A DNA stretch of 64,000 bases from Achromobacter sp. MYb9. Lineage in GTDB: Bacteria; Pseudomonadota; Gammaproteobacteria; Burkholderiales; Burkholderiaceae_B. Position 1 is the first letter of the stretch, and the number at the start of each line of letters is the position of its first letter. Shown here piece by piece: positions 1,983 to 16,711 of the stretch. The position numbers and the translations under genes are program-made. The notes beneath the pieces are model-generated. The model did no database searches. It saw nothing but the letters and a program-made list of their open reading frames with translations, and was not told where the DNA came from. The DNA lies in NCBI RefSeq assembly GCF_002975275.1, contig NZ_PCOQ01000004.1, positions 62,001-126,000 on the forward strand, in the 5' to 3' direction.

Positions 1983-2624
1983 TCAGACGCCCTCGGGGCC
2001 CGGCACGCCAAGCAACGCGTTGCGCTTGGCGAATTCGGCCAGTTCCAGCACCGATTCCATCCCCAGCTTTTGCAGCAAGCGCGTCTTGTACGTGCTGACC
2101 GTCTTGTTGCTAAGCAAGAGCAGTTCGCCGATTTCCTTGTTCGACCGGCCCTGCGCCAGGTATTGCAGCACCACCATCTCGCGGTCGGACAAGCGCTTGA
2201 CCATGTCCGAGTCCGACAGGCGCCCATGCTCGGTCGCCACCGCCATCGACGGAAAGACGCTATAGCCCGCCATCACGGCCTTGATGGCGTTGACCAGCTT
2301 GTTCAGGTCTTCGTCCTTGCTGATGAACCCTTTGGCGCCCGCCTGCATGCAACGATGGCAGAACGCCTCCGACGACTGTGACGTCAGCACCAGGACATGA
2401 CAGTCCGGGTTGATGGCCAACATGCGCGCGATGACGCTCAGGCCGTCCAGCTTGGGGATGCCGATGTCCAGGATCACCACGTCGGGAGACAAGTCGCGCA
2501 GCGCCTGCACGGCGTCAATACCGTTGCCGACTTCACCAACAACGTGAAAGCCGTTCGTCTCAAGCAGCATCCGCACCGCGAGTCTTACCAGAGGATGGTC
2601 ATCGACAATCAGGATCGTATTCAT
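1983..2624 (-). CDS. NarL/FixJ-family response regulator, BvgA/RocA-like
   Basis: A 213-residue two-component response regulator. The receiver domain covers about residues 1-120 with the acid pocket Asp8-Asp9, phosphoacceptor Asp53 in VILDIGIPKLDG, Thr81 and Lys103. A LuxR-type helix-turn-helix follows at about 145-205 (LSDREMVVLQYLAQGRSNKE, then LSNKTVSTYKTRLLQKLG). The receiver motif and the recognition helix are nearly those of Bordetella BvgA, and the protein is also of the size and type of Pseudomonas RocA1. It is transcribed away from the fimbrial operon; the shared upstream region carries a BvgA-type inverted heptamer. The sensor that best fits it is the BvgS-like kinase at 10851-14507. 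Gene symbol left empty because orthology to bvgA or rocA cannot be settled by eye. Confidence 0.9.
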   Translation of the reverse strand: MNTILIVDDHPLVRLAVRMLLETNGFHVVGEVGNGIDAVQALRDLSPDVVILDIGIPKLDGLSVIARMLAINPDCHVLVLTSQSSEAFCHRCMQAGAKGFISKDEDLNKLVNAIKAVMAGYSVFPSMAVATEHGRLSDSDMVKRLSDREMVVLQYLAQGRSNKEIGELLLLSNKTVSTYKTRLLQKLGMESVLELAEFAKRNALLGVPGPEGV

Positions 2625-2946
2625 GGCCGGCTACCGCATTTCCTTTGAGTAAGCATCCGCAGTCGCGCCTCAGGCCTTGACCTGCCAGCGTCACGTATCG
2701 GGACCTCTAATTCTAGTCGCACAGCGTATTCCTTTAGAACCACAACGGAGTCGGCGGGCCGATTAGGAAATTTCCTACAAGCGACTGCTACCCATCCTAT
2801 TTTCGCCCGTTGCCACGGTCCATACACTGCTTTCAGCTAAAAGACAGCGGCGAAAAAAAGGCGAATGTGGCTGTAGATTGAAGTCTCACTGCATCGCCAC
2901 ATGATCGCTGTCCTGAAGGCTGAAACCCCTTTACATGGACACCGTG
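2625..2946. other. divergent regulatory region between response regulator and major pilin
   Basis: About 320 bases without a gene, placed between the leftward regulator and the rightward fimbrial operon. It holds a perfect 14-bp palindrome (2764-2777) plus further heptamer-like sequences at 2639-2645, 2728-2734 and 2793-2799 that resemble BvgA half-sites. Possible -10 elements for the fimbrial side include TACACT at 2823 and TAGATT at 2874, but neither has a convincing -35 box, as expected of an activator-dependent promoter. A GAAGG at 2915-2919 may serve as ribosome site for an ATG at 2935. Confidence 0.6.
2764..2777. promoter_or_regulatory. BvgA-type inverted heptamer operator
   Basis: TAGGAAATTTCCTA is a perfect palindrome made of two inverted TTTCCTA heptamers. 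The known BvgA-binding heptamer in Bordetella is (T/A)TTC(C/T)TA, and an inverted pair of such heptamers is the high-affinity site at the fhaB promoter. A weaker copy, CATCCTA, ends at 2799, exactly 22 bases downstream in the same orientation; 22 bases is the phasing of successive BvgA dimers at fhaB. Seen: the palindrome and its spacing. Inferred: that the neighbouring BvgA-like regulator binds here and activates the fimbrial operon. Confidence 0.7.
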
Positions 2947-3483
2947 ATGAAACTCAATAAACTGGCCCTGCTCCTCGCAACGATGGCCCTGGGCACCGCT
3001 TCCTCGGCAAGCTTTGCCGCCAATGATGGCGGCGAAATCACCTTCAAGGGCTCGATCATCGAAGCCCCTTGCTCGATCACCGCCGAAAGCGCGAATCAGA
3101 CCGTGCAAATGGACAAGATCACGAAGTCCGCACTGAAGGATGGCGGCAAGTCCGCGCCGAAGACCTTCCAGATCCGCCTGACCGAATGCGACCTGACCGA
3201 TGCCAAGAAAAACGTCACCGCCACGTTCAGCGGCCAGACGTCGGTTCCTCAGCCCGACCTGCTGGCGTTCACCAGCGGCGCGGCTTCCGGCGCCAGCCTG
3301 GCTATCGCGGATAGCCACGGCAACCTGATCAAGGCCAACACCCCGTCCCCGGCCTCGAAGCTGATCTACACGGAAAACGTACTGCAGTTCCAGGCCTATC
3401 TGCAAGGCGACGGCCAAACCGGCGGCACCGTCGTTCCGGGCGACTTCACCACGTCCGCGACCTTCACCCTGAATTACCAGTAA
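2947..3483 (+). CDS. major type 1 fimbrial subunit
   Basis: A 178-residue pilin of the FimA family, exported and assembled by the chaperone-usher route. The signal peptide MKLNKLALLLATMALG ends near SFA/AND. The mature part starts with a short donor strand, then EITFKGSIIEAPC, the second cysteine in LTECDLT giving the usual disulfide, and the C-terminal beta-motif TFTLNYQ with the penultimate tyrosine used for chaperone binding. An ATG at 2935 in the same frame adds four residues and has a distant GAAGG; 2947 was chosen because it gives a standard signal peptide. First gene of the operon and the only one followed by a strong terminator-like hairpin, which fits the most abundant subunit. Confidence 0.9.
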   Translation: MKLNKLALLLATMALGTASSASFAANDGGEITFKGSIIEAPCSITAESANQTVQMDKITKSALKDGGKSAPKTFQIRLTECDLTDAKKNVTATFSGQTSVPQPDLLAFTSGAASGASLAIADSHGNLIKANTPSPASKLIYTENVLQFQAYLQGDGQTGGTVVPGDFTTSATFTLNYQ

Positions 3484-3503
3484 GTCCCTCAGGGATCCAA
3501 CTG

Positions 3504-3543
3504 CCCGAAGCGCGCGAGGTTTGCGCGCGTCGGGCTCCTTTTT
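3504..3543 (+). terminator. intrinsic terminator/attenuator after the major pilin gene
   Basis: CCCGA-a-GCGCGC (3504-3515) pairs with GCGCGC-g-TCGGG (3523-3534), leaving a 7-base loop and one internal mismatch, and is followed by CTCCTTTTT. The stem is 11 base pairs, GC-rich, with a U tract, so it should stop much of the transcription between the major pilin gene and the rest of the operon. In fimbrial operons such an element lets the major subunit be made in excess over usher, chaperone and minor subunits. Confidence 0.8.
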
Positions 3544-3565
3544 GGAGAACTGGGGGAAACAGCCG

Positions 3566-4114
3566 ATGCATCGGTTCAAGTCTGCTTCACGCCCTGGCCT
3601 GCTGATTCTGTTCATTGCCCTGAACGCCTGCATGGCAGGCACGGCCAGCGCGCATGCACTGACGGCGAAGGTCAGCCTGAACGGCGCCATTGTGAGCTCG
3701 CCATGCTCGCTACAGGTGGAGTCCAAGGATCAAACCGTCAGCATGGCGCCCGCCGCCATCAGCGGGCTGATAAGTGGCGTAGCCACCCTACAACAACCAT
3801 TCAAAGTTCAACTGCTTAATTGCAGCCCCCCACGTACCCATTCCGGCGACCTCGGCAGCAACACGTTCACCCTGATATTCGAAGGCACCGGAGACCACCA
3901 AGGGTTCTTGCCCCGAGGGTCGGCCAAAGGCATCGCGATTCGAATCAAAGACAGCCGCGGCAAACAAGTGGTGCCCGGCGTCCCCGTGCAACAGCGCTTG
4001 CCGTCATCCGGCGACTTGGCATTGCTCTACGCGCTTAGCTTGACCGGCACGGGCGCCGCGCTTCAAGCGGGCGATTACCAGATCACCATCCGGCTCCGGA
4101 TGAACTACTTCTGA
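3566..4114 (+). CDS. fimbrial subunit (second pilin)
   Basis: A 182-residue type 1 pilin-like protein. A signal peptide with a hydrophobic stretch near residues 12-28 ends at TASA/HAL; the mature protein has KVSLNGAIVSSPC, a second cysteine in LLNCSPP and a closing beta-strand TIRLRMNYF. The ATG at 3566 has a GGGGGAAA ribosome site 7 bases upstream; the open frame starting at 3521 runs back into the terminator and was discarded. It follows the major pilin behind the attenuator, so it is probably a lower-abundance subunit: adaptor, anchor or terminator. Confidence 0.85.
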   Translation: MHRFKSASRPGLLILFIALNACMAGTASAHALTAKVSLNGAIVSSPCSLQVESKDQTVSMAPAAISGLISGVATLQQPFKVQLLNCSPPRTHSGDLGSNTFTLIFEGTGDHQGFLPRGSAKGIAIRIKDSRGKQVVPGVPVQQRLPSSGDLALLYALSLTGTGAALQAGDYQITIRLRMNYF

Positions 4115-4155
4115 GCCGCCACATTTTTGTTGAGACGCTAAAGGACGCCGTTCAC

Positions 4156-6618
4156 GTGATTCGCCTCAGGGTGCTGAACATAGTTGTTTTGATGCTGATT
4201 GCCTGCTCCGCTGAAGCTGCCGAGGAACTCGAATTCAACACGGACGTCCTGGACATCAAGGACAGGCAGAACATTGACCTGAGCGTCTTCGCGCGGGCGA
4301 ACTACATCATGCCGGGCACGTACAACCTGACCCTGCACGTCAATCAGAATCAGCTGAACGACCTTGATGTCTCGTTCTTGGCGCCTGCCGACGATCCGAA
4401 GGGTAGCGCGGCCTGCCTGTCTCCGGAGCTGGTGGCCCAACTGGGCCTGCGCGCAAGCTCAGAGCGAAAGCTGACCTGGTGGAACGGCGGCAAGTGCCTG
4501 GATCCCGATAGCGTTGCCGGCATGACGGTGCGCGCCGATCTCGGCACCTCGGGGCTGTACGTGGTCATCCCGCAAGCCGCACTTGAGTACAGCGCCCCAA
4601 ACTGGGATCCACCGTCGCGCTGGGATGAAGGCATTCCCGGCGTATTGCTGGACTACAACTTGAACGCGCAATCCACGCGACGCACTCGCGGCGAGGGCAA
4701 CTCCACACGCCTAAGCGGCTATGGCACGCTGGGCATGAACCTGGGCGCCTGGCGCATGCGTGCCGACTGGCAAGCGCAGGCAGACCGTATCACCGGACAA
4801 ACGCGCCGCCAGAGTTTCGACTGGAGCCGCTTTTACGCCATGCGAGCCGTTCCCTCGATGCGCTCGAGCCTGATTGTGGGCGAAGACTACCTGAACTCCA
4901 ATCTGTTCGGCAGCTTCCGATACACAGGCGCCAGCCTGACCAGTGACGACAGCATGCTGCCGCCAAACTTGCGCGGCTACGCACCCGAAATTTCGGGCGT
5001 TGCCCGCAGCAACGCGCGCGTCATCGTGCGGCAGCTGGGCCGCGTGCTCTACGACACCCAAGTACCTCCCGGCCCTTTCCGCATCCAGGACTTGAACGAC
5101 GCGGTCAGCGGCAAACTGGACGTGCGCGTGGAAGAACAAGACGGCACCAGCCAGCAATTTCAGGTCGATACCGCCAACATCCCCTACCTGACCCGTCCCG
5201 GCTCGGTGCGGTTTCAATTCGCGGGGGGCAAGCCTTCCGAATGGAACCACCGCATGAACGGTCCAGCCTTCGGGTCCGGCGAGTTCTCCTGGGGCGTCAG
5301 CAACGGCTGGTCGCTTTACGGGGGTGGCCTGGGCGCGAAGGACTATGCCGCGGTTGCCGTCGGCGTGGGCCGCGACCTGATGGCGTTCGGCGCGCTGTCC
5401 GTTGACGTCACGCAATCGCGCGCCGTGTTGCCGGGCCGCCGCATCCTTTCCGGGAAGTCCTACCGCGCCAGCTATTCCAAGCGCTTCGAGGAATTCGATA
5501 GTCAAGTCACGTTCGCCGGCTACCGGTTTTCGCAGCGGGACTTCATGACCATGAACGAGTTTATCGACGCCCGCCACGGCGGCACGCCGGTGAACCAGAG
5601 CAAGGCCATGTATACCGCCACGGTAAGCAAGCAGTTCCGTGGCGCGAATACCAGCGTCTATGCCAACCTCAACCATCAGACCTACTGGAACAGCCGGTCA
5701 AGCAACCGCTATAGCCTGTCGGCATCACGCTATTTCGACTTGGGCCGCCTGAAGAACTTGAGCCTGTCGGTCACGGGCTACCAGACGCAAGCCGACGGTG
5801 CGTCGGATCGTGGCGCGTATCTGTCGTTGAGCATTCCGTTGGGCAACAGCGCATCCGTCAGCTACAGCGCGTCGGTGGACCGCCGCAACGCCACGCACAA
5901 CGTGAGCTACTACGACCGCCTGGACGAACGCAACAACTACATGATCAGTGCAGGCGCGGGCGGCGGCGGCAAGGCCAGCGGTTATCTGACGCACGAAGGC
6001 ACGCTGGCGCAGGTCGTGGCCAGTGTCAGCCATGAATCGGGCGCCTACAGCTCGGGCGGCTTGTCCATGCAGGGCGGCGCCACGCTTACCGCCAAGGGTG
6101 CCGCGCTGCACCGGACGTCCGTCGCAGGCGGCACCCGCCTGATGATCGACACCAACGGTGTCGCCGGCGTGCCGGTGCGTGGCTACGGCATGACAACGAA
6201 GTCGAACCTGTTCGGCACCGCCGTGATCACCGACGTCAACAGCTACTACCGCAACCAGGCCAGCATCGACCTCGACGCGCTTGCCGATGACGTCGAAGCG
6301 ACCCAATCGGTGGTGCAGGCGACGCTGACCGAAGGCGCCATTGGCTACCGCTCCCTGGACTTGATTTCCGGAGTAAAGGCCATGACGACCATCCAGCTGA
6401 GCGACGGCGCGCATCCTCCCTTTGGCGTGACCGTGCGCAATAGCCGCAACCAGGCCACGGGCATCGTCGGCGATGACGGGGTTGTCTACCTGAGCGGCAT
6501 GAAACCCGGCGAGACCATGACGCTGCAATGGAACGGCAAGCCGCAATGCTCGTTTGACATTCCCAAAACGGATGCAGCCGGGTCGCCTGAACGGTTCCTC
6601 TGCCACCCCACGCCGTAA
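4156..6618 (+). CDS. outer-membrane fimbrial usher
   Basis: An 820-residue usher of the FimD/PapC family, the outer-membrane pore that receives chaperone-bound pilins and exports the growing fibre. After a signal peptide ending at AEAA come the N-terminal chaperone-binding domain (about 25-165), the 24-strand barrel with plug (about 185-735; SRFYAMRAVPSMRSSLIVGE and PPNLRGYAPEISGVARSNA are typical) and C-terminal domains with a cysteine pair (CSFDIPK and FLCHPTP). The start is GTG with AAGGA about 10 bases upstream; no ATG is available before the signal peptide. Sole usher in the cluster, so it must export all six subunits. Confidence 0.96.
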   Translation: MIRLRVLNIVVLMLIACSAEAAEELEFNTDVLDIKDRQNIDLSVFARANYIMPGTYNLTLHVNQNQLNDLDVSFLAPADDPKGSAACLSPELVAQLGLRASSERKLTWWNGGKCLDPDSVAGMTVRADLGTSGLYVVIPQAALEYSAPNWDPPSRWDEGIPGVLLDYNLNAQSTRRTRGEGNSTRLSGYGTLGMNLGAWRMRADWQAQADRITGQTRRQSFDWSRFYAMRAVPSMRSSLIVGEDYLNSNLFGSFRYTGASLTSDDSMLPPNLRGYAPEISGVARSNARVIVRQLGRVLYDTQVPPGPFRIQDLNDAVSGKLDVRVEEQDGTSQQFQVDTANIPYLTRPGSVRFQFAGGKPSEWNHRMNGPAFGSGEFSWGVSNGWSLYGGGLGAKDYAAVAVGVGRDLMAFGALSVDVTQSRAVLPGRRILSGKSYRASYSKRFEEFDSQVTFAGYRFSQRDFMTMNEFIDARHGGTPVNQSKAMYTATVSKQFRGANTSVYANLNHQTYWNSRSSNRYSLSASRYFDLGRLKNLSLSVTGYQTQADGASDRGAYLSLSIPLGNSASVSYSASVDRRNATHNVSYYDRLDERNNYMISAGAGGGGKASGYLTHEGTLAQVVASVSHESGAYSSGGLSMQGGATLTAKGAALHRTSVAGGTRLMIDTNGVAGVPVRGYGMTTKSNLFGTAVITDVNSYYRNQASIDLDALADDVEATQSVVQATLTEGAIGYRSLDLISGVKAMTTIQLSDGAHPPFGVTVRNSRNQATGIVGDDGVVYLSGMKPGETMTLQWNGKPQCSFDIPKTDAAGSPERFLCHPTP

Positions 6619-6678
6619 GGCCTGGCGCCCGAACCCTCCCGAAACGAAACACGCAACATTCAACCAGCCCCAACTACC

Positions 6679-7428
6679 ATGACCCCTCTCATCTTGAAAA
6701 AATTCGCGTCCACCGCCCTGCTCTGCCTGTTCGCCTCGCAGCCTGCCTTGGCGGCGGTGTCCCTGGACAGGACACGCATCGTCTTTCCTGGCCAGGATAA
6801 ATCCGTCAGTTTGAACATCAGCAATCAGAACGATCGATTGCCCTATCTGGCACAAGCCTGGATCGAGAACGACAAGGATGAAAAGACCACCGGTCCACTG
6901 GTCGTGCTGCCTCCGCTGCAACGGCTTGAGCCCGGCGCCAGGAGCCAGGTGAAGATCCAGGCATTGCCCGCTGCCAAGCAATTGCCTCAAGACCGGGAAA
7001 GCCTCTTCTATTTCAATCTACGCGAAGTGCCGCCCCGCAGCGATCAGGCCAATAGCTTGCAGATCGCGCTGCAGACGCGGGTCAAGCTTTTTTATCGCCC
7101 CGAGGCATTGGACATTCCGTCCGGATCGTCGGCAGCCCTCTGGCAAGAACGCATCCGCCTGACGCGTGAGGGTGACCGGTACACCGTCGACAACCCTACC
7201 CCCTACTACCTGACACTGATCGACGCCTCAAAGAACGCGAGCGGATCATCAATCGCAAACTTTGAACCGCTGATGATCGCGCCGTACTCGCAAGCCCCGC
7301 TGGGCATCGGGGCCGGCAGCCTCGGCAACGCCCCCGTGCTGACCTACATCAATGACTATGGTGGCCGGCCCAAGCTGGAATTCCGCTGCACCGGGCAGGA
7401 GTGCACGGCAAAGCAAATCAGCAACTGA
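6679..7428 (+). CDS. periplasmic fimbrial chaperone, FGS type
   Basis: A 249-residue PapD/FimC-family chaperone that folds pilins in the periplasm by donor-strand complementation and hands them to the usher. A signal peptide ends at PALA/AVSL. The two basic residues that anchor the pilin C terminus are visible in LDRTRIVF (Arg) and TRVKLFYRP (Lys). The G1 strand motif ESLFYFNLREVPP and the short F1-G1 loop place it in the FGS subfamily, which builds rod-like pili. It lies 60 bases after the usher and overlaps none of its neighbours. Confidence 0.95.
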   Translation: MTPLILKKFASTALLCLFASQPALAAVSLDRTRIVFPGQDKSVSLNISNQNDRLPYLAQAWIENDKDEKTTGPLVVLPPLQRLEPGARSQVKIQALPAAKQLPQDRESLFYFNLREVPPRSDQANSLQIALQTRVKLFYRPEALDIPSGSSAALWQERIRLTREGDRYTVDNPTPYYLTLIDASKNASGSSIANFEPLMIAPYSQAPLGIGAGSLGNAPVLTYINDYGGRPKLEFRCTGQECTAKQISN

Positions 7429-7457
7429 TCGCGCCCCTAACGCTGCCAGGCCTTTCC

Positions 7458-8069
7458 ATGACCACAAACTCCCGTCGTACAACAAATGCCCGCGCCGGCT
7501 TGCACGCCGCGCTGCTCTGTGTGGCCGCCGCCATCTCAAGCGCGGCCGTCGCCACGGAGTTCGGTAACGCCGATGACTTCAACGCCCAGTTCCATGTAAT
7601 TGGCTCCCTATTGGAAAGCGCCTGCCATCTGGACATGAGGTCGGCCTACCAGGAAGTCGCGCTAGGCGAAATCAGCACCGCGGACCTGCCACAGCCTGGC
7701 GACCAAGGCGTGTCTGTCGCGGTGCAGCTGAAGCTGCGCGGCTGCGTCCGAACCGAGGGCGGCAGGCGCGAGGCAAACGGTGGGGCGCTGGCCTGGAGCC
7801 GCGCTGAACCCGTGGTCGGCATCACCTTCCGGGCACAAACGGACCCCGACACGCCCGAACTGGTGGGTGTGCTCGGCGCATCGGGATTTGGCTTGCGTTT
7901 AAGCGACGCCAGTCGGCGGCGCATTGCCGTGGGCCAGCAAACGCGCGCCTGGTTCGTTGCGCCCGGAGATTCCACACTGACCTACTACATCACCCCGGAA
8001 CGCACGGCCGCGGCCCTGCAGCCCGGCCACTTTCAAGCCTATATCAATCTCTTCCTGACTTATGACTAA
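7458..8069 (+). CDS. fimbrial minor subunit
   Basis: A 203-residue pilin-domain protein. Signal peptide from about residue 12 to AVA/TEF, then a long N-terminal arm before LLESAC, a second cysteine in LRGCVRT and the terminal strand YINLFLTYD. The ATG at 7458 was preferred to the in-frame ATG at 7401, which would lie inside the chaperone gene. The gene ends with ATGACTAAG, where the next subunit already starts, so the two are translationally coupled. It is the largest subunit but still single-domain and too short for a FimH-like two-domain adhesin. Confidence 0.8.
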   Translation: MTTNSRRTTNARAGLHAALLCVAAAISSAAVATEFGNADDFNAQFHVIGSLLESACHLDMRSAYQEVALGEISTADLPQPGDQGVSVAVQLKLRGCVRTEGGRREANGGALAWSRAEPVVGITFRAQTDPDTPELVGVLGASGFGLRLSDASRRRIAVGQQTRAWFVAPGDSTLTYYITPERTAAALQPGHFQAYINLFLTYD

Positions 8070-8574
8070 GCGCCTGCTCCATAAGCCCGCATATCTACGG
8101 CTGCCTGGCTTGGCGGTCGCCTTGGTTTTTGCCGCGTCCGTGCCCGCCCAGACCCGCATCTCGATCAAGGGAAAGATCTTTGCGGCCATTCCCTGCGTCG
8201 TGACCGGTAATCAAGGCAGCATGATCGACGTCCCGTTTGGCGAAGTCCTGACGACACGGGTTGATGGCGCTTACCTGACCAAGGACATTCCTTACGGCCT
8301 GGATTGCCGCAACGCCTCGACGAATTCACTGCGCATGCAGATTACCGGCAATATCGCCCGCTTCGGCGACGGACAGTTTTTGGGCATCGCGTCCAATCCC
8401 CATTTGGCGATCGCGCTGAAAAATGGCAATACGCCGATCGCGCCAAAGAAGTGGTTCGATTTCGACAGCAACGTGCCTCCGTTATTGCGGGCGGTGCTGG
8501 TGAAAGACCCCGCAGGCGACATCGAGGCCGGCCACTTCAACGTCGGAGCCACTCTGGTGGTGGAATATCGATGA
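8062..8574 (+). CDS. fimbrial minor subunit with short N-terminal arm
   Basis: A 170-residue pilin-like protein starting inside the end of the preceding gene (8-base overlap). The signal peptide ends near VPA/QTR; the mature chain has only about 15 residues before the first cysteine (IFAAIPC), then GLDCRNAS, and ends with the strand GATLVVEYR. E. coli FimA has about 20 residues before this cysteine, so the donor-strand extension looks shortened. Such a subunit could cap one end of the fibre; this is inference. It and the next gene resemble each other (both have an Ile-Pro-Tyr-x-Ile/Leu-x-Cys segment), suggesting duplication. Confidence 0.8.
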   Translation: MTKRLLHKPAYLRLPGLAVALVFAASVPAQTRISIKGKIFAAIPCVVTGNQGSMIDVPFGEVLTTRVDGAYLTKDIPYGLDCRNASTNSLRMQITGNIARFGDGQFLGIASNPHLAIALKNGNTPIAPKKWFDFDSNVPPLLRAVLVKDPAGDIEAGHFNVGATLVVEYR

Positions 8575-9080
8575 ACCTCTCCCGCGACAGACATTCGCTT
8601 ACCGCCCTGGCGCTGTTCGCCCTGCTTGCGGCCAGCCCGTTGCCGGCTGCCGCCGAAGAAAACATGCGATTCACCGGAACGCTGATCACGCCGGGATGCA
8701 CCGTCAGCGACAAAGGCGGGCGCATCAATGTGGCATTCAAGACCAACCTGGGTATTGAAAAGATCAATGGCGAGAACTATCGGCAGACCATCCCCTACCA
8801 GATCGACTGTCCGGGCAGTGCCCCGTGGCGGATGAAGATGACGCTGATTGCGCCCGAAACGAAATTCGATCCTCCCGCCGTGCAGACGTCCATCGATGAC
8901 CTGGGCATTCAGATATGGTTGAACGGCGAGGCGTTGGCGCTTAATCGCCCCAAGACCGTCGAGATGACCGACCGGAACCGCCCCCCCCTCCTGGAGGCAG
9001 TGCCCGTGAAGAGGCTTGGATCGCGCTTGCCTGAAGAGAGCTTCGAGGCGACGGCGCTGCTGATCGCTGAACTTTACTAG
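8571..9080 (+). CDS. fimbrial minor subunit with short N-terminal arm
   Basis: A 169-residue pilin-like protein whose ATG overlaps the stop of the previous gene (ATGA), showing translational coupling. The signal peptide ends at PAAA/EEN; the mature arm before the first cysteine (LITPGC) is about 15 residues, short as in the previous subunit. The second cysteine is in YQIDCPGS. The C terminus ALLIAELY ends in tyrosine instead of having it one residue before the end. The frame is open upstream to 8304, but that stretch lies inside the previous gene. Probably a paralogue of the 8062 subunit. Confidence 0.78.
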   Translation: MNLSRDRHSLTALALFALLAASPLPAAAEENMRFTGTLITPGCTVSDKGGRINVAFKTNLGIEKINGENYRQTIPYQIDCPGSAPWRMKMTLIAPETKFDPPAVQTSIDDLGIQIWLNGEALALNRPKTVEMTDRNRPPLLEAVPVKRLGSRLPEESFEATALLIAELY

Positions 9081-9090
9081 GAGGCCACGA

Positions 9091-9627
9091 ATGAGGATCC
9101 TCACCATAGCGGCGGCGTTCCTGGCGGCAATGGCAGCAGGCACAGCGTCGGCACAATCTGCCGGGTCGAACAATATGTCCTTTTCCGGGCGCTTGGTGGC
9201 CGAGCCCTGCACCTTGGACCCCGCCGACGCGATGCGCGAGCTGAATTTCCGCGGCGTCACGACAAGCGAGATCTATGCCAAAGGCCGCAGCGCCGGCCGC
9301 CCGATCACGCTCCATTTGCAGAACTGCGATATCGGCGAAGGCCGAACGCGCGTCAACGTGACATTGACCGGACACCCCAGTTCCCTATTGCCGGGGCATC
9401 TGAACCTGAATGCCGGCGGCGCCGTCGGCGTGGCAATCGGCTTGGAGACCAGCCACGGCATTGCGCTGCCGTTGAATCAAGCCAATCCCATCGGGACGCT
9501 TACCGCCGGCGGCAACGACATTGTCATCAATGCATTCTTGCGGGGTGAACCGGCAGCGCTGGCCAACAGGACGATCCACCAGGGCGCCATCAACGCCACC
9601 GTGACATTCGCGTTCAGCTATGACTGA
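9091..9627 (+). CDS. fimbrial subunit (last of the operon)
   Basis: A 178-residue pilin-like protein with a strong ribosome site, AGGAGG at 9079-9084, six bases before the ATG. The signal peptide ends at ASA/QSA. The mature chain has MSFSGRLVAEPC, a second cysteine in LQNCDIG, a segment very like the major-pilin fold (GGAVGVAIGLETSHG) and the closing strand TFAFSYD. Its strong translation signal contrasts with the coupled genes before it and suggests more copies per fibre than them. It is followed 27 bases later by the EAL-domain regulator, which may share the transcript. Confidence 0.83.
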   Translation: MRILTIAAAFLAAMAAGTASAQSAGSNNMSFSGRLVAEPCTLDPADAMRELNFRGVTTSEIYAKGRSAGRPITLHLQNCDIGEGRTRVNVTLTGHPSSLLPGHLNLNAGGAVGVAIGLETSHGIALPLNQANPIGTLTAGGNDIVINAFLRGEPAALANRTIHQGAINATVTFAFSYD

Positions 9628-9654
9628 ACGGCATTCGCGTTCGAGACCTGTTCC

Positions 9655-10845
9655 ATGAAGAACCTTAGCGTGCTGGTGTTGGAAGATCACCCGTTTCAGC
9701 GATTGATGGTGGTCACCGCCCTGCGATCTGCCATCACGGGAAGGATCTACGAAGCATCCGAAGGCGGCGAAGCCTTGTCGCTGCTAAAGGCCTGCGGTGG
9801 CGTGGACATCGCTATCTGCGACTTGCAGATGGCAGGCAAGGACGGGCTGGAGTTCCTGCGAGAATCCGGCAACGCCCGGCTGGTGCATTCCGTCATTCTC
9901 AACAGCGCGTTGGACCCGGCGCTGTGCCAGGCTTCGGCTGCCATGATCGAATGCCTGGACCTGAATTTTCTGGGCGAACTTGCCAGACCGCTGGACATCA
10001 ATGGCCTGACCGCGTTGCTGGCGACGTTCCAGCGCACCCGTCGACGGGCGCCTGCCGCTCCGGTTGAACCGCCTCCCGCAAGTGAGGTGCGGCAAGGGTT
10101 GGCGCGCGGCGAATTCAAGGCGTACTACCAGCCCAAGGTCAGTATCAATGGCGAATCCCTGGTAGAGGCGGAGGTGCTGGCGCGCTGGCATCACCCGCAA
10201 CACGGCGTGCTGCCCCCGTCGCATTTCCTTCCCGCGATGCAAACCCACGGCCTGATGGAACCGCTGTTCTGGCGCATGCTGGATCAAGGACTGGAACTTC
10301 AGGCCCAGCAGAAACGCACCCACCCACCGGCCACACTCGCCTTCAATCTGCACCCGTCCCAACTTGCCTCGCGGCTGTTGACCTCGGGCATCGAGCACGC
10401 GCTGGCCCAACGCCAGTTATCGGCAAGCGACATTACCCTGGAAGTCACCGAAGACGGCCTGGAGAGCACGCCCGCCGCCACGCTGGAAAACCTGGTGCGG
10501 TTGCGCGTCATGGGTTGCGGCCTGGCCATGGACGACTTCGGCGCGGGCTATTCGTCCCTGGACCGCCTATGCGCCTTTCCCTTTAGCCAGATCAAGCTGG
10601 ACGCCAGCTTCGTGCGCCGGCTGAAAATCCAGCCGCGCACCGCCGCGGTGATCCGAGGCGTTGCCAGCATGGCCGAGGCCTTGGGTTTGGACTTGGTGGT
10701 GGAAGGCGTGGAAACGCTGGAACAGCGAACGCAGCTACAGCAGCTGGGATGCAAGATCGCCCAGGGATATCTGTACGCCCGCCCGATGGACCAGGCGCAG
10801 TTCCTGGGATATTGCCAGACGCACCCGCCTGGCGCGTTGCACTGA
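9655..10845 (+). CDS. REC-EAL cyclic-di-GMP phosphodiesterase, RocR-like
   Basis: A 396-residue response regulator with a receiver domain (about 1-125, phosphoacceptor Asp56 in AICDLQM) and an EAL domain (about 145-390). Catalytic positions are intact: Glu173 in EVLARW (EVL in place of EAL, as in RocR), Asn231, Glu263, the DDFGAG loop with Asp293-Asp294, Lys314 and Glu350. Length and motif order match Pseudomonas RocR closely, including LNFLGEL in the linker and LENLVRLRVMGCGLAMDDFG. It should hydrolyse cyclic di-GMP on phosphorylation and so oppose fimbriation or biofilm formation. It is directly behind the fimbrial genes and converges with the BvgS-like kinase, five bases apart. Confidence 0.93.
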   Translation: MKNLSVLVLEDHPFQRLMVVTALRSAITGRIYEASEGGEALSLLKACGGVDIAICDLQMAGKDGLEFLRESGNARLVHSVILNSALDPALCQASAAMIECLDLNFLGELARPLDINGLTALLATFQRTRRRAPAAPVEPPPASEVRQGLARGEFKAYYQPKVSINGESLVEAEVLARWHHPQHGVLPPSHFLPAMQTHGLMEPLFWRMLDQGLELQAQQKRTHPPATLAFNLHPSQLASRLLTSGIEHALAQRQLSASDITLEVTEDGLESTPAATLENLVRLRVMGCGLAMDDFGAGYSSLDRLCAFPFSQIKLDASFVRRLKIQPRTAAVIRGVASMAEALGLDLVVEGVETLEQRTQLQQLGCKIAQGYLYARPMDQAQFLGYCQTHPPGALH

Positions 10846-10850
10846 CCGCA

Positions 10851-13800
10851 CTAGCTGCGTTCGCTGCCCCGCAGCCTGATCAATGCTTGCTCCAATTGAC
10901 GCAAAGACGATTGAAGACCGTCGACTGCGCGCGCCAATGCCCCATCATTGGCGCGCCCGGCGCCGCATGCGTGCTCGAGCTCGCTGCACGCCTGGACCAC
11001 GCCTTGCGCCCGGATCACATTCGCCGCCCCCTTGATACGGTGGGCGATTTCCGCAATCTGACCGACCCGCCCCGTCGACGCGTAAGCCTCCAACCGCTGC
11101 GCATCTTCGCGGTTGGCGCGCACCAACTCGTCGAGCAGCAGCCATTGCTGATCGAGATTGCCGCCCGACACCTCCTGCAAAGGCCGCAAATCGAATAAGG
11201 GCGCGTCGGCCTGGGCGTCAAGAGGATCGCGGCTTTCCGGGACGATGCCCGTAAGGCGTGCCGCCAGCGCATCCAGACCGACCGGCTTGATCAGGCATTC
11301 ATCCATGCCGGCCTGCACGCAGCGTGCGATCTCTTCCGGTTGGGCGTCCGCCGTCACGCCGATGATCAGGGCCCGATCTTCGCCACGTTCCTGTTCCCCC
11401 TGCCTGACGGCCCTGGCCAGTTCCGCACCACTCATGCCTGGCATGCGGAAATCAGTGAAAATCACGTCGAACGGATGCGTCGCGCATCGGGCCAAGGCCG
11501 CGATGCCGTCCGGCGCCTCTTGCACATCGTGGCCCAGGAAGGTCAGCTGCTGCGTCAATATGCGCCGGCTGACCGCATGGTCGTCCACTACGAGGATCTG
11601 CAAGACGCGTTCGCTTCCCGGCGGTGCCAGCGCCGGTTTTGGCGCCGCCATCACCGGGTCGAGGACCTGCAAGCGCAGCTCCGCCAAGACCGTCGTGCCG
11701 CGCCCCGGAACGCTCGACAAGGTCAAACGCCCGCCCATCATTTCGCACAATGAGCGGCTGATGACGAGACCCAGTCCCGTCCCGCCGGCGCCCCGCTCGC
11801 CCCCGTCAACCTGGACGAACGGCCGGAACAGGCGTTGCTGGTCTTCGTCGGAAATCCCGACCCCGGTGTCCTCGACGACGACGCTGACCTGCAGGAGCGA
11901 CGTTTCCGCTTGCACGGCCTGCACACGCACCCTGACGAATCCCGAGTCCGTGTAGTTGATCGCGTTGCCAACCAGATTGGACAGGATCTGCTTGAACCGC
12001 AGCGCGTCGATCAGCACGTCGGCCTGGGCCTCGGCATCGATCTCCAGCAACAGGTTCAGGCCCTTCTGGCGCGCCAACCCTTCGAATACCCGCGCCACGG
12101 ATTCCACCTGTTCGCGCAAATTGGCGCGCCCGGGCGTGAGGCTCAGGCGTCCGGATTCGATCCGGACGATATCCAGGATGTCGCCGATCAGCGCAAGCAG
12201 GCTTTGTGCCGAGGCGAAAGCGATCTCGATGCTGTGGCGGTCGATGGGCTTGGCGTCGGCGCGCTTGAGCGCAAGCTCCAACGTGCCGATGATGGCGTTC
12301 ATCGGCGTGCGTATCTCGTGGCTCATCGTGGCCAGGAAGGTCGTCTTGGCCCGGCTGGCCGCCAGCGCCTGGTCCTTTGCGGCTTCGATCTCCTGGATCA
12401 GATGGCGATGCTCGGTAATGTCGATCCACCCGCAGATCACGCCACCGTTCACGCCGGCGGAATCCTGGAAAGGCTGGATCCAGTGCTGAATCCAGATCTC
12501 TTTGCCATGCAGGCGGACGGCATGCACGCCGGTCGTGCTTCGGTTGGTCTTCAACGCTTCGAGATAGCTCGCGTGAAAGCGTTCGGCGGCTTCGAATGCG
12601 TCGCTGGGCATTTCCAGCGCGGTCTTGCCCAACACGTCTTCGGCAGTCAGCCCGGCGCTGTCCAGGTAGCTTCGGTTGCACGCCAGCATGCGCCCTTCGG
12701 TGTCGCGCACGTAAATCGGCGGCGGCATGCTGTCCATCAGCGTCCTGACGAATTGCAACTGGTCTTTCAGCAGCTTCTTGGCGTGCTCCTTGGCGCGGAC
12801 GGTCCGTCTTAGCGAGACCGCCCAGGCCAATGCGATCAGCAAGAGCAAGGCCGCGGCCGCAATGACTTCGGCGATGATGACGGCGTAGTCGCGCCAGGTC
12901 TCGCCCGCCATGCCGGGGATTGCTTTCCAACGGTTGTTGAATGCGTTGATCTGATAGGGCGTCAGCACGGCAAGCGTCTTGTCCAGGATCGATTGCAGTT
13001 CCGGATCGCTGCGACGCACGGCGAAGCTGATGCCGACAGGCGCAAGGTCCAGCATATCGCTCACGACCAGACGGTCGCCGAACAAGCGGCCGTTGTAGTA
13101 ACGCGCTGACGGCAGCGCCATGACGGCGGCGTCTGCTTCGTCGGTGTCGACCTTGTGCAGGGCGTCCAACGAGGAGCCGACGCGGGTAATCGTGGCCTGG
13201 GAATAACGCTCGGCGACAAACCCGCTTGCGAAATGCCCCTCGGCAATGGCGATGCGGCGCGGATCCGGCGGCACGCCCGCGTCGCGTGCGCCGCGCCTCA
13301 TGACCAGCACCAGCGGATCCAGGGAGATCGGTTTGGTGAAGCGCAGGGACTGTTCCCGCTCGGACGTGACGGTCATGATGCCGACGTCGGCCCCATGTTG
13401 CTGGATCAGGTCGATCTGGGCGGGAAAACTGCCCCGGCGGCTGACCACATCGAACGTCAGCCCTGTCTGGAAGGACACCATTTCAAGCACGTCGGACGCC
13501 AGACCCGAGAAATGGCCGTTGACGTTGAAGAACGCGATCGGCGCCAGATCGTCGTTGATCACCAGACGCAATCGGGGATGCTGCGCGATCCAGCGCAGCT
13601 CGTCTGGCGTGAGGGGAATGTTTCGGCTATCGGGGATAAAACCGCTTCCCGCCCAACTGCGGGTGATCTCCGGCAAAGCGCCACCGATCGCCACGATGGC
13701 CTCGTTGATCACCTGCCGCAGGCGCGCATCGTCGGCGTTCAACGCGTAACGATACTGCGTGGACATATCCGTGAAACGATCGAACCGGACATAGCCGTAA

Positions 13801-14507
13801 AAGGCGCCGTTGATCCGGTGATAGGCCGTCAGCACGCCTCCCAGATAGGCGTCGCTGTGGCCAAAACCCAGCGCCGCGATGGCTTGATCGTCGGTCCCGT
13901 ACTCCACGACCTTGGCGTCGGGATAGCGCCGGGAGGCTTCAGCCGCCGTTGCGGCGCCCGCGACCGCAACGGTGATGCCGCGCAAATCCGCGCGGAATTG
14001 CCGGGTTTCGCTCGTGCGGCGGAACAACGCGATCTTGTCGGTCACATAGGGCGTGCTGGGCAGAAAGCCGGCTGCGGCAGCGGGCTCCAGGTCTCCAGCC
14101 AGCAGGTCGATCTTCTTGTCGGCCAGCGCGGCCAGTGCAGCCTTGTCGTCCGGAAACGCCACCAGCCGGACGCTCAAGCCAAGCAGTTGCGCCACCAGCG
14201 AGGTCACGTCGGCGTTGATACCCTTGTAGGTGCCGTCGCGGTAAACCATTTCGAAGGGCGCTTGCGCCTTGTCGACGACGCCCAGCACCAATTCGCGCTT
14301 TTCGCGCAACCAGACCCAATCGCTTTCGGAAATTGCAGGGGTGACATGCTGCCAATGCACTTGGCTTTGCAGCGTCAGCAGGGAAAGGCCTGGCGGCTCG
14401 GCGGCCCTTGCCGGCAACAAGGCGGCCACCATCGATAGCAGGCTCACGAGCAGGAGTCGCCGCAAGCTCGAGTCCCGGATGACAAACTGCCTCATGGGCA
14501 ATCCCAT
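10851..14507 (-). CDS. BvgS/RocS-like unorthodox hybrid sensor histidine kinase
   Basis: A 1218-residue inner-membrane sensor with the full BvgS architecture: signal peptide to about 35, two periplasmic solute-binding (Venus flytrap) domains at about 65-290 and 300-535, a membrane helix at about 541-565, PAS at about 585-705, HisKA with His730 in MSHEIRTPMN, HATPase with ATP-lid motifs ending GGTGLGLVISRSL near 920, receiver with Asp1019 and a C-terminal Hpt with His1156. B. pertussis BvgS has His729, Asp1023 and His1172, almost the same spacing. It should phosphorylate the BvgA-like regulator and possibly the REC-EAL protein. An ATG four codons in (14495) is an equally possible start. Confidence 0.95.
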   Translation of the reverse strand: MGLPMRQFVIRDSSLRRLLLVSLLSMVAALLPARAAEPPGLSLLTLQSQVHWQHVTPAISESDWVWLREKRELVLGVVDKAQAPFEMVYRDGTYKGINADVTSLVAQLLGLSVRLVAFPDDKAALAALADKKIDLLAGDLEPAAAAGFLPSTPYVTDKIALFRRTSETRQFRADLRGITVAVAGAATAAEASRRYPDAKVVEYGTDDQAIAALGFGHSDAYLGGVLTAYHRINGAFYGYVRFDRFTDMSTQYRYALNADDARLRQVINEAIVAIGGALPEITRSWAGSGFIPDSRNIPLTPDELRWIAQHPRLRLVINDDLAPIAFFNVNGHFSGLASDVLEMVSFQTGLTFDVVSRRGSFPAQIDLIQQHGADVGIMTVTSEREQSLRFTKPISLDPLVLVMRRGARDAGVPPDPRRIAIAEGHFASGFVAERYSQATITRVGSSLDALHKVDTDEADAAVMALPSARYYNGRLFGDRLVVSDMLDLAPVGISFAVRRSDPELQSILDKTLAVLTPYQINAFNNRWKAIPGMAGETWRDYAVIIAEVIAAAALLLLIALAWAVSLRRTVRAKEHAKKLLKDQLQFVRTLMDSMPPPIYVRDTEGRMLACNRSYLDSAGLTAEDVLGKTALEMPSDAFEAAERFHASYLEALKTNRSTTGVHAVRLHGKEIWIQHWIQPFQDSAGVNGGVICGWIDITEHRHLIQEIEAAKDQALAASRAKTTFLATMSHEIRTPMNAIIGTLELALKRADAKPIDRHSIEIAFASAQSLLALIGDILDIVRIESGRLSLTPGRANLREQVESVARVFEGLARQKGLNLLLEIDAEAQADVLIDALRFKQILSNLVGNAINYTDSGFVRVRVQAVQAETSLLQVSVVVEDTGVGISDEDQQRLFRPFVQVDGGERGAGGTGLGLVISRSLCEMMGGRLTLSSVPGRGTTVLAELRLQVLDPVMAAPKPALAPPGSERVLQILVVDDHAVSRRILTQQLTFLGHDVQEAPDGIAALARCATHPFDVIFTDFRMPGMSGAELARAVRQGEQERGEDRALIIGVTADAQPEEIARCVQAGMDECLIKPVGLDALAARLTGIVPESRDPLDAQADAPLFDLRPLQEVSGGNLDQQWLLLDELVRANREDAQRLEAYASTGRVGQIAEIAHRIKGAANVIRAQGVVQACSELEHACGAGRANDGALARAVDGLQSSLRQLEQALIRLRGSERS

Positions 14508-14557: not shown

Positions 14558-15277
14558 TTACGAGCGTCCGCCCAGACTGCCTCCGCCGTCCACGCCCAGT
14601 ACCTGGCCGGTGATGAAACCCGCATCATCCGACAGCAGGAAAGCGATGGCGGCGGCAACTTCGGCCGGCGTGCCCAGCCGCTTCATGGGCACCGATGCCA
14701 GCGCGCGCTTTTCGCCGTCGCTGCCCGCCGGACGCGTGGCGCGGAACATTTCGGTTTCGATCGGGCCTGGCGCGACCGCGTTGGCGGTGACGCCGTATTC
14801 GGCCAGTTCCAATGCCCAGGTGCGGGTGCAACCGACCAGCGCGTTCTTGGCGGCGGAATAGGCCGTGCGGTCCAGGCCGCCGTAGATGGCGCGGCTGACC
14901 ACGTTGACGATGCGGCCGGCGCGGCGCACTTTCATGGACTCAACGAAAGCCTGCGTCACTTGCACCGCGACGCGGACGTTCAAATCCAGCACGTTGTACA
15001 GCGTGGCAAGGTCGATCTCGCCCAACGGCTGCGGAGACGCGATGCCGACATTATTGACCACGGCGTCGACGGGGAATTTTTCGCGGATTTCCCGCAGGAC
15101 TTCTTCAGTGCGCCCGGCGTCGGCCAGGTCACAGGCATACAGATATCCCGGGAAGTCGACGTCGGTGGTGTTGCGCGCAATGCCGACCACGTGACAGCCC
15201 ATGTCGGACAGCCGCTGCGTAAGCGCCCAGCCGATGCCTTTCGTGGCGCCCGTAATGAGCACGCATTTGTCCTTCAT
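14558..15277 (-). CDS. SDR-family NAD(P)-dependent oxidoreductase
   Basis: A 239-residue classical short-chain dehydrogenase. It shows the cofactor motif TGATKGIG near residue 9, a CDLADA segment, NNVGIASP in place of NNAG, a catalytic Ser in VVSRAIYGG, and YSAAKNALVG with the catalytic Tyr-x3-Lys. The C terminus GQVLGVDGGGSLGGRS is FabG-like. The substrate cannot be read from sequence; FabG-type acyl or sugar/polyol oxidoreductases are possible. It lies downstream of the alanine racemase gene on the same strand, but a terminator separates the two, so it probably has its own promoter in 15278-15309. Confidence 0.88.
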   Translation of the reverse strand: MKDKCVLITGATKGIGWALTQRLSDMGCHVVGIARNTTDVDFPGYLYACDLADAGRTEEVLREIREKFPVDAVVNNVGIASPQPLGEIDLATLYNVLDLNVRVAVQVTQAFVESMKVRRAGRIVNVVSRAIYGGLDRTAYSAAKNALVGCTRTWALELAEYGVTANAVAPGPIETEMFRATRPAGSDGEKRALASVPMKRLGTPAEVAAAIAFLLSDDAGFITGQVLGVDGGGSLGGRS

Positions 15278-15309
15278 GGGTGGAAACCTCGCAGTCTGTT
15301 TTCTGGGTC

Positions 15310-15332
15310 AAAAACGGGCGCTTGAGCGCCCG
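15310..15332 (-). terminator. intrinsic terminator downstream of alanine racemase
   Basis: CGGGCGC (15315-15321) pairs perfectly with GCGCCCG (15326-15332) around a TTGA loop. Read on the minus strand, the stem is followed by five T residues (A at 15310-15314). This fits a rho-independent terminator ending the alanine racemase transcript before the SDR gene. Confidence 0.72.
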
Positions 15333-15453
15333 GTGTTCCAAGTAGACACCATCCGGCGTCGGCTGTCTTGTAAATTGCGTAGCAATTCTTGCACGCCGGA
15401 CACTCCCGAACGGCAGCCGTCTTGCCTGGCGGGCGGGCGGAAAACCCGCGCGA

Positions 15454-16581
15454 TCAGGCGTCGCGGGTGACCGGGACGCGCGGCGCCAAGGCGCAGAGAA
15501 GCTCGTAGCCGATCGTGCCGGCGGCTTGGGCCACTTCGTCGACGGACGGGCCATCTTCGCCCCAAAGCACCGCGGGCGCGCCGACGCCCGCCGCCGGGAT
15601 GGGGTCCAGGTCGACGATCAGCATGTCCATGGAGACGCGGCCAACCAATTGGGTACGGATGCCCGCCACGACGACCGGGGTGCCCGTGGTGGCGTGGCGC
15701 GGATAGCCGTCGGCATAGCCGCAGGCCACGATGCCGATGCGCATGGCGCGTTCGGCGCGGAAGATGGCGCCGTAGCCGACGGAATCGCCCGCCTTGAGCT
15801 CTTGCACCGCGATGATCTCGGAACTGAGCGACATGGCCGGCTTCAGGCCGAACGACGCGGCGTCGGCGTCGGCGAACGGCGAGGCGCCGTACAGGCAGAT
15901 GCCCGGACGCACCCAATGGGTCTGCGTCGGCGACCCGATGGCGATGTCGGCGAAACGCAGCGTGGCCGCGGAGTTGCAGACGCTGATCGTGCCCGGCAGC
16001 TTATGCGTCACCGAATTAAATACGGCCAATTGCTCGTTCACCCCCTGGGGGCCGTCGGCGCAGGCGAAATGGGTCATTTTTCCGATCGAGCCTACCGTGC
16101 CCTGCTGTTGCAGCAGCATGGCGCGTTCATGCGCGGCGGGATAGGCGGCGGGGCTGAAGCCCAGCCGGTTCATGCCACTGTTCAGCTTCAGCATGATGTC
16201 CACCCGGCGCGCGAAGCGCGCGCGGGCCAGCATGTCGAGTTGTTCGCGATTGTGAACCGTGGTGCTGAGGTGATAGCGATCGATCAGGTCGAGGTCCGAC
16301 GGATTGAAGAAGCCTTCAAGCAGCAGGATGGGCCCGCCCCAGCCAGCCTCGCGACAGCGCACGGCTTCATCCAGGTCCAGCATCGCCAGGCCCTGCGCCT
16401 TGGAAAACCCCGTTACCGCTTGCTCGATGCCATGCCCGTAGGCGTTGGCCTTGATGACCGCCCAGATGGAGGGCGGCAGGCCGGAGGCGGCCGCGGCGGT
16501 CTGTTCAAGGTGGCGGCGCACGGCGGCAAGATTGTGCGCAAGGGCAGAAACGGAGACGGTGGCTGAAATTGGGCGCGGCAT
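15454..16581 (-). CDS. alr: alanine racemase
   Basis: A 375-residue PLP-dependent racemase that makes D-alanine for peptidoglycan or converts D-alanine back for catabolism. The PLP lysine is Lys44 in [12 protein letters not shown]; other family marks are [29 protein letters not shown] and the second catalytic tyrosine in [17 protein letters not shown]. The ATG at 16581 was chosen because AGGATCTCACATC places a ribosome site just upstream and the protein then starts like family members; the frame is open to 16638. No dadA neighbour is seen, so whether it is the biosynthetic (alr) or catabolic (dadX) type cannot be decided. Confidence 0.93.
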
Positions 16582-16711
16582 GATGTGAGATCCTGTGGCG
16601 CTTAAGTCTAACTGATCACGCCCCCGCCGGCACGGCATCGTGCCTTGGCGAAACGACTACTCTAAAATGATGCGGACACGGTCCCCGGGGACCCCGCCCG
16701 AGCTGCTTATT

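Follow-up and report, generated by a model that had tools for sequence, protein, structure and literature searches.

A probable Roc1-type three-component system linked in cis to a fimbrial operon: a predicted fimbrial switch in Achromobacter sp. MYb9

In the Roc network of Pseudomonas aeruginosa, the sensors, the regulators and their cup fimbrial targets are scattered over separate loci, with cross-talk among them. Here we examine a block of genes in a 64,000-nucleotide stretch of Achromobacter sp. MYb9 (contig NZ_PCOQ01000004.1; hereafter the window), in which a response regulator, a REC-EAL phosphodiesterase and a sensor enclose one chaperone-usher operon. On sequence comparison, we assign a probability of about 0.8 to the reading that these genes form a three-component system of the Roc1 type, linked in cis to a fimbrial operon of its own and predicted to act as a switch. 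The P. aeruginosa sensors RocS1-3 have previously been called homologues of BvgS, RocR is the repressor of cupC, and cupC is under the control of RocA1 (available part of PMC3083521). Linkage of fimbrial clusters to regulator and EAL genes is already known from cupD-rcsBC-pvrRS (available part of PMC2696094), and rocA3-rocR3 lies beside cupB, where a lost rocS3 has been proposed by the authors (available part of PMC12051241). The words Achromobacter, putida, protegens and fluorescens do not occur in the main text of PMC12051241, and literature searches, at the level of titles and abstract openings, returned no Roc-type fimbrial locus of Achromobacter. What the present locus adds is evidence in cis, in the form of an operator; the system itself is closely related to a known one, with some unusual rewiring.

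The block comprises eleven genes in 12.5 kb. A rocA-like, NarL-type response regulator gene of 213 codons on the minus strand (1983-2624; REC and LuxR/GerE helix-turn-helix, from Pfam Response_reg and GerE) is followed on the plus strand by eight fimbrial genes (2935-9627) and a rocR-like REC-EAL gene (9655-10845; Response_reg and EAL) and, on the minus strand again, by a rocS-like unorthodox sensor (10851-14507; SBP_bac_3 in two stretches, taken as two VFT domains, PAS, HisKA, HATPase_c, Response_reg and Hpt). Because the EAL gene starts only 27 bp past the last fimbrial gene, it is by position the last member of the fimbrial operon; at its other end, 5 bp separate it from the sensor gene, the two lying tail to tail. 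Open reading frames, Pfam domains and conservation in relatives bear out the original prediction that the three signalling genes surround a single fimbrial operon, and its gene boundaries agree with the open reading frames of the window. The sensor residues that it placed close to those of BvgS, His730, Asp1019 and His1156, do align as H1, D1 and H2 with the same residues of BvgS, RocS1 and EvgS. The regulator has D8/D9, D53, T81 and K103, and its recognition helix SNKTVSTYKTRLLQKL is identical in B. pertussis BvgA and in RocA1 of P. aeruginosa PA7.

Phylogenies group all three signalling proteins with Pseudomonas RocS1, RocA1 and RocR, which indicates a Roc1-type system and not the bridge between Roc and Bvg that had been suggested. 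Relatives were drawn from genome collections only. The quick trees contained rows on long branches; the careful trees kept 25 of 42 rows for the sensor and 21 of 37 for the regulator, with EvgS/EvgA, RocS2 (sensor tree only) and others dropped. In the careful sensor tree, the window protein forms a clade (100/100) with those of strains UMC46 and Bel, A. marplatensis and a further genome, G016. This clade joins eight Pseudomonas RocS1-type sensors, including that of PA7 (100/99), and four Bordetella BvgS proteins stand apart (100/100). A single clade of the Achromobacter sensors and BvgS was rejected by the approximately unbiased (AU) test, at a cost of 143 log units (p-AU 4.3e-5). The regulator groups with RocA1 types, among them P. 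aeruginosa RocA1 (99/99), and its union with BvgA was likewise rejected (p-AU 8e-4). The alignment of the EAL protein with P. aeruginosa RocR extends over its full length (483 bits, 57% identity), and in a quick tree of 42 rows the two fall into one 13-row union (support 92 in the Shimodaira-Hasegawa-like approximate likelihood-ratio test, SH-aLRT); seven Bordetella EAL proteins form a clade of their own (99) inside the wider RocR group (96). That tree left out one gene in pieces (locus L139) and short or duplicate stretches, and the AU tests covered the sensor and regulator only. The set had been described as of Roc/Bvg type: the first half of that description stands, whereas membership in Bvg does not.

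The arrangement recurs in a minority of related genomes. The REC-EAL protein (E <= 1e-60) is present in four of 43 Achromobacter genomes, that of MYb9 included, and the sensor (E <= 1e-150) in six. All four carry regulator, operon, EAL gene and sensor in the same order and between the same flanks, namely a fumarylacetoacetate-hydrolase/aldolase pair (39-1955 in the window) and a dehydrogenase/alanine racemase pair (14558-16638), the sensor gene of the window starting 50 bp behind the short-chain dehydrogenase gene on the same strand. A fifth Achromobacter genome, G016, has the sensor and the operon but lacks an EAL gene between the two, and its fimA and regulator lie on the other side; in G024 the sensor and regulator are more distant and belong to another clade. 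Synteny was recovered in three more Achromobacter genomes but not across the genus. At the dehydrogenase locus of 30 genomes (of 43 matched), the sensor adjoins in five, the aldolase gene adjoins directly, as an empty site, in 15, the aldolase gene lies about 1.4 kb off in one, and neither is found within about 1.5 kb in nine. This patchy distribution marks the block as accessory; its G+C content (62.3%, vs. 66.1% in 14558-64000) differs little from that of the neighboring DNA. In a sample of the family, a RocR-type protein (E <= 1e-75) occurs in 11 of 268 genomes, which are the four Achromobacter and seven of one other genus. Beyond Achromobacter the closest relatives belong to Pseudomonas, which makes transfer between the two groups likely.

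A genome scan with the EAL protein, in which the best 80 of 133 relatives were considered, led to loci in P. aeruginosa PA7, P. capeferrum, P. putida, P. protegens, P. lactis, three Bordetella and others. In five Pseudomonas loci (PH1b, P. capeferrum, P. putida 31303, P. protegens FD6 and P. lactis), a regulator-EAL-sensor set adjoins an operon whose usher is 65-68% identical. The arrangement is not due to chance, since its order recurs in three other Achromobacter genomes and five Pseudomonas genomes have homologous sets together with a homologous operon. Gene order differs between the genera: in Achromobacter the operon is flanked by the regulator and EAL genes and the sensor is inverted, whereas in four of the Pseudomonas loci it lies behind the regulator on the same strand; in FD6 it runs towards the regulator from the latter's far side. 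P. putida 31303 has a second set, with a 44% identical usher behind the sensor. Sensor hits lie within 10 kb of an usher in 11 of 48 cases, against 0.69 expected (one B. hinzii sensor hit excluded), a count biased by the fact that the genomes were reached through Roc-type loci. Within the sensor clade, PA7 falls outside the other seven Pseudomonas rows (97/96), and the fimbrial operon adjoins the sensor in all five Achromobacter rows and in five of those seven (FD6_b and 14B2_a being without it). By a hand count, which includes one P. aeruginosa genome, we infer that a linked ancestor requires two losses and an unlinked ancestor three changes. We also observed other BvgS-family sensors beside unrelated ushers (G054:C59, G047:C1:958154, G044:C14, G044:C8 and G043:C1:4542246).

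Comparison with the described systems shows both what is shared and what is not. P. aeruginosa Roc1 has the same three proteins by tree, the same domains and, in the shared rocA1-rocR region, the same kind of operator; but in PA7, the one P. aeruginosa genome compared, no such fimbrial operon occurs at the locus, the ushers found in the genome are 28-31% identical, and the sensor and EAL genes are co-directional instead of tail to tail. RclSAR of P. capeferrum WCS358 comes from the same strain as our locus L021, which we infer to be rclSAR; there a homologous fimbrial operon lies beside the regulator of a sensor/regulator/EAL set, in a gene order unlike that of the window, and the available part of PMC9331949 does not mention a linked fimbrial operon for RclSAR. 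The roc3 locus (P. paraeruginosa, P. aeruginosa clade 4) resembles the block in having a regulator and a RocR-type gene beside a chaperone-usher operon, but lacks the sensor that is complete in the window, and in PA7 the usher on the cupB side has about 31% identity. In cupD-rcsBC-pvrRS, as described for P. aeruginosa PA14 in the available source, a regulator and a REC-EAL protein adjoin a fimbrial operon, but there are two sensors; identity of the window EAL protein with PvrR was rejected, its score of 245.8 bits being far below the NF052596 cut-off of 580.

The evidence in cis is a perfect palindrome, TAGGAAATTTCCTA (2764-2777, 0 mismatches), in the intergenic region between the regulator gene and fimA. 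It is probably a RocA/BvgA-type operator, proposed as the primary site of the phosphorylated regulator, and its position is such that it could also serve the regulator gene. A secondary half-site, TGCTACCCATCCTA (2786-2799, plus strand), is centered 22 bp downstream, and a probable -10 element, TACACT, follows at 2823-2828 on the same strand. In the five Achromobacter promoters, whose DNA has otherwise diverged, the palindrome (one change in two of them), ATCCTATTT of the half-site and TACACTGnTTTCAGCT are invariant, as is TACACTG at the -10 element. Scanning the window at up to 3 mismatches returned two matches in 64 kb (the other at 34397, with 2 mismatches), against 0.25 expected, a number reached by 4 of 100 shuffles. 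In the 6.7-Mb draft genome, this is the only copy at <=1 mismatch. At that same threshold, a copy stands at fimA in all five Achromobacter genomes with sensor and operon, and anywhere at all in six of the 38 without them (Fisher 4.8e-4, with genome kinship disregarded); the pattern read backwards, as a control, was found in one of 43 Achromobacter genomes, and nine other genomes had 0-6 operator copies and no control copies. A single strong operator in this genome agrees with the suggestion of a dedicated fimbrial switch in Achromobacter, but the switch is not a feature of the genus (four of 43 genomes, and a fifth without the EAL gene).

Copies also occur away from the block. In five of the six Achromobacter genomes that have a copy but no block, it adjoins other regulator, sensor or EAL genes (L191, L194, L195, L197, L186 and L189/L199), which suggests further BvgA/RocA-type regulons; in the sixth, G006, it does not (L185 and L196). 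In strain Bel, a second palindrome with 1 mismatch (L019, 12134-12147), together with about 1 kb containing an extra open frame, lies between the EAL and sensor genes. In PA7, a perfect operator (G043:C1:1440685, L208) stands about 150 bp before a frame that starts like a response regulator and precedes the gene of a BvgS-family sensor that is neither RocS1 nor RocS2.

Among related loci, scanned over 350 bp upstream of each gene, the site lies before fimA and/or rocR in most of the Pseudomonas ones. Upstream of fimA, where the palindrome is also kept in P. capeferrum, P. putida and PH1b, eight of 11 regions have 0-1 mismatch, with the center 151-185 bp before the start, and three have 3-4. 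Upstream of Roc-type rocR genes there are at most 2 mismatches in nine of 14 cases, 3 in two and 4 in one, and no site (6-7 mismatches) in two. No operator was found before the sensor gene (5-7 mismatches in five of five tested) or before the Bordetella RocR-type genes (best 5 mismatches, seven of seven); upstream of bvgA, B. pertussis has a site with 1 mismatch and the other four tested have 4-7. For PA7, whose roc and cup gene names we assign by position and take to be those in use, the region shared by rocA1 and rocR contains a single site with 2 mismatches (p 0.001 counted from rocR, 0/1000 from rocA1), and sites with 2 mismatches precede cupC1 (p 0.002) and rocR3 (p 0.009); rocA3 has 4 mismatches (p 0.10) and rocS1 has 5 (p 0.14). 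Sites are paired 22 bp apart before P. capeferrum fimA and 21 bp apart before P. putida rocR, a spacing resembling that of BvgA, which binds as head-to-head dimers spaced 22 bp, its best site being on an inverted heptad (available part of PMC7250471).

A model of how such a switch would operate can be put together from these parts. The sensor would respond to a periplasmic signal and, judging from its domains and residues, pass phosphate from H730 to D1019 to H1156 and on to D53 of the regulator. The phosphorylated regulator would bind as dimers beside the fimA promoter, at 2764-2777 and at the half-site 22 bp downstream, and switch on fimA, the usher and chaperone genes and the minor subunits, as the conserved operator and the behavior of BvgA and RocA1 suggest. 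The REC-EAL protein, presumably made from the same transcript, may lower cyclic di-GMP (c-di-GMP) while fimbriae are produced and so apply a delayed brake, comparable to that of RocR on cup genes. The block is real and conserved, and it is probably a functional Roc1-type fimbrial switch. With sensor, regulator, phosphodiesterase and target operon together at one locus, and with apparently the only strong operator of the genome, the locus offers a self-contained setting in which to study the signal, the operator and what the phosphodiesterase contributes. Natural variants, in which the EAL gene is missing (G016) or the receiver is dead (A. marplatensis, strain Bel), allow a comparative test of what phosphorylation does.

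Several observations weigh against so simple a switch. When P. capeferrum WCS358 lost RclS, its adhesion rose 3.57-fold and its biofilm did not change (available part of PMC9331949), which is unlike what would be predicted for a simple activator of fimbriae. The position of P. protegens FD6 is incongruent between the usher and sensor trees, so that parts can evidently be exchanged, and the MYb9 genome has a second usher, 28% identical to the first. Sites before fimA are poor in P. lactis and FD6 (4 mismatches each, p 0.12 and 0.07) and in the second P. putida set (3 mismatches, p 0.03). In PA7, cupB1 has only a site with 4 mismatches (p 0.17), and the cupA side has sites with 4 and 6 (p 0.038 and 0.8); the site alone therefore cannot separate Roc-controlled from other cup promoters. 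Finally, the EAL protein of the window has Arg111 in its receiver where RocR has Lys, the usual residue.

This last replacement, shared with UMC46, bears on an alternative in which the c-di-GMP arm is decaying and the locus is in practice a two-component fimbrial switch, its EAL protein acting, if at all, by its amount and not through phosphorylation. The arm is wired in three ways among the five Achromobacter loci: in the window and in UMC46 the EAL gene follows closely behind the fimbrial operon and has no operator within 350 bp upstream (6-7 mismatches); in A. marplatensis and strain Bel it has its own operator, with 2 mismatches; and in G016 it is absent. Moreover, receiver residue 56 is Ser in A. 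marplatensis and Gln in strain Bel, and in both proteins loop 6 has His for Tyr. In P. spelaei (L027, 9995-11206), the phospho-acceptor Asp of a RocR-type receiver is replaced by Asn and one acidic residue is lost, the EAL residues being kept; receiver loss is thus not confined to Achromobacter, which also fits with decay. However, the window protein keeps E10, D11 and D56 of its receiver and all the EAL catalytic residues examined, and catalytic residues are retained even in proteins that have lost receiver residues. Asn83, where RocR has Ser, proves little, since most Pseudomonas relatives have Cys at this position. We consider decay of the arm rather unlikely.

Another possibility is that the signalling genes and the operon merely share an island, and that the main targets of the system lie elsewhere and are controlled in trans, as those of Roc1 are in P. 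aeruginosa. In PA7 the three genes occur where this fimbrial operon is missing, and RclS of P. capeferrum is reported to alter many genes (available part of PMC9331949). But the single genomic copy of the operator at <=1 mismatch is located at fimA, and linkage has been retained despite the different gene orders of Achromobacter and Pseudomonas, which together make control chiefly in trans improbable.

Membership of the block in the Bvg type, or a place midway between Bvg and Roc, is very improbable: its domain order is BvgS-like, the best solved-structure match of its sensor is the periplasmic part of BvgS, its recognition helix is that of BvgA, the EAL and sensor genes lie tail to tail as in B. 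pertussis and a similar operator precedes B. pertussis bvgA, but the trees put sensor and regulator inside Roc1 clades and reject their union with BvgS and BvgA, and the window EAL protein has a REC domain and a full catalytic set where BvgR has neither (in part from the available text of PMC11537037).

The B. pertussis locus does show bvgR tail to tail with bvgS, as the original prediction had stated. The tail-to-tail order is only a resemblance, because BvgR is reported to lack 12 of 13 EAL residues (available part of PMC11537037) and is too divergent to place, its branch of 9.6 in the quick EAL tree making any position meaningless. Seven genomes of the 268 have a BvgS match (E <= 1e-90). 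B. pertussis (G096), which falls outside the set of 11 genomes with RocR-type matches, has bvgA-bvgS-bvgR; in the other six loci (L137, L029, L138, L139, L140 and L141), a RocR-type REC-EAL gene lies directly upstream of bvgA. In L139 this gene is in two frames (about 5145-6343), and in L141 bvgS is interrupted (about 7466-11082). Within the few kb fetched behind bvgS, to which the search was limited, none of the six had a BvgR-like match. The only BvgS-like periplasmic match of B. hinzii (E <= 1e-20, 40%) stands in a row of REC-EAL, regulator and sensor genes on one strand, and Bordetella genomosp. 1 (L028) and 5 (L026) have a pair of EAL gene and BvgA-like regulator with no BvgS-like match at the thresholds used. 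All examined REC and EAL residues, and DDFGTGFSS in loop 6, are kept in seven Bordetella RocR-type proteins, five linked to bvg and two beside a regulator only. The term bvgR does not occur in the main text, as available, of a comparative Bordetella paper (PMC5045587), and no published account of a RocR-type gene upstream of bvgA was found in the open papers, as far as their available text extends. The arrangement asks directly where BvgR came from.

A wider scenario, which we offer tentatively, would make Roc and Bvg sister three-component systems that share one operator. The original partner of Roc1 would have been this Stf/Ste-like fimbrial operon in cis, lost in P. aeruginosa, where Roc1 was re-aimed at cupB and cupC in trans; and the phosphodiesterase arm would be unstable, repeatedly re-wired or lost, and replaced by an inactive BvgR in classical Bordetella, while six of seven bvg loci keep a RocR-type gene or its pieces.

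The fimbrial genes, all on the plus strand, begin with a fimA-like major subunit (2935-3483, alternative start 2947; Pfam Fimbrial, 78 bits) and a fimI-like minor subunit (3566-4114, open frame from 3521; Fimbrial, 24.8 bits, cut-off 25.6), which is matched in UMC46, A. marplatensis and G016 and had no match in strain Bel. The usher (4156-6618; Pfam Usher) is above the cut-off of NF011812 (1049 vs. 972 bits), which together with NF011804 we take to represent the StfC/SteB usher families. In an usher tree of 17 rows, the Achromobacter branching order is that of the five Achromobacter sensors. The partner genes have Stf/Ste families as their best NCBIfam matches but stay below the equivalog cut-offs: the StfD/SteC-like chaperone (6679-7428; PapD_N and PapD_C; StfD, 269 vs. 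447 bits), the SteD/StfE-like second minor subunit (8062-8574; Fimbrial; 56.7 vs. 250) and the StfG/SteF-like fourth (9091-9627; Fimbrial; 64.7 vs. 253). The first minor subunit (7458-8069, open frame from 7401) matches Pfam Fimbrial, and the third (8571-9080) is an open frame with 70% identity in UMC46 (L017). Scans of the window for sigma-70 consensus promoters (2 matches vs. 2.4 in shuffles, TACACT at 2823-2828 not among them) and for terminators (6 vs. 11.3) gave no excess. The minor subunits vary among relatives: A. marplatensis has no match to the third, and in strain Bel the first is unmatched and a second match to minor subunit 2 takes the place of the third.

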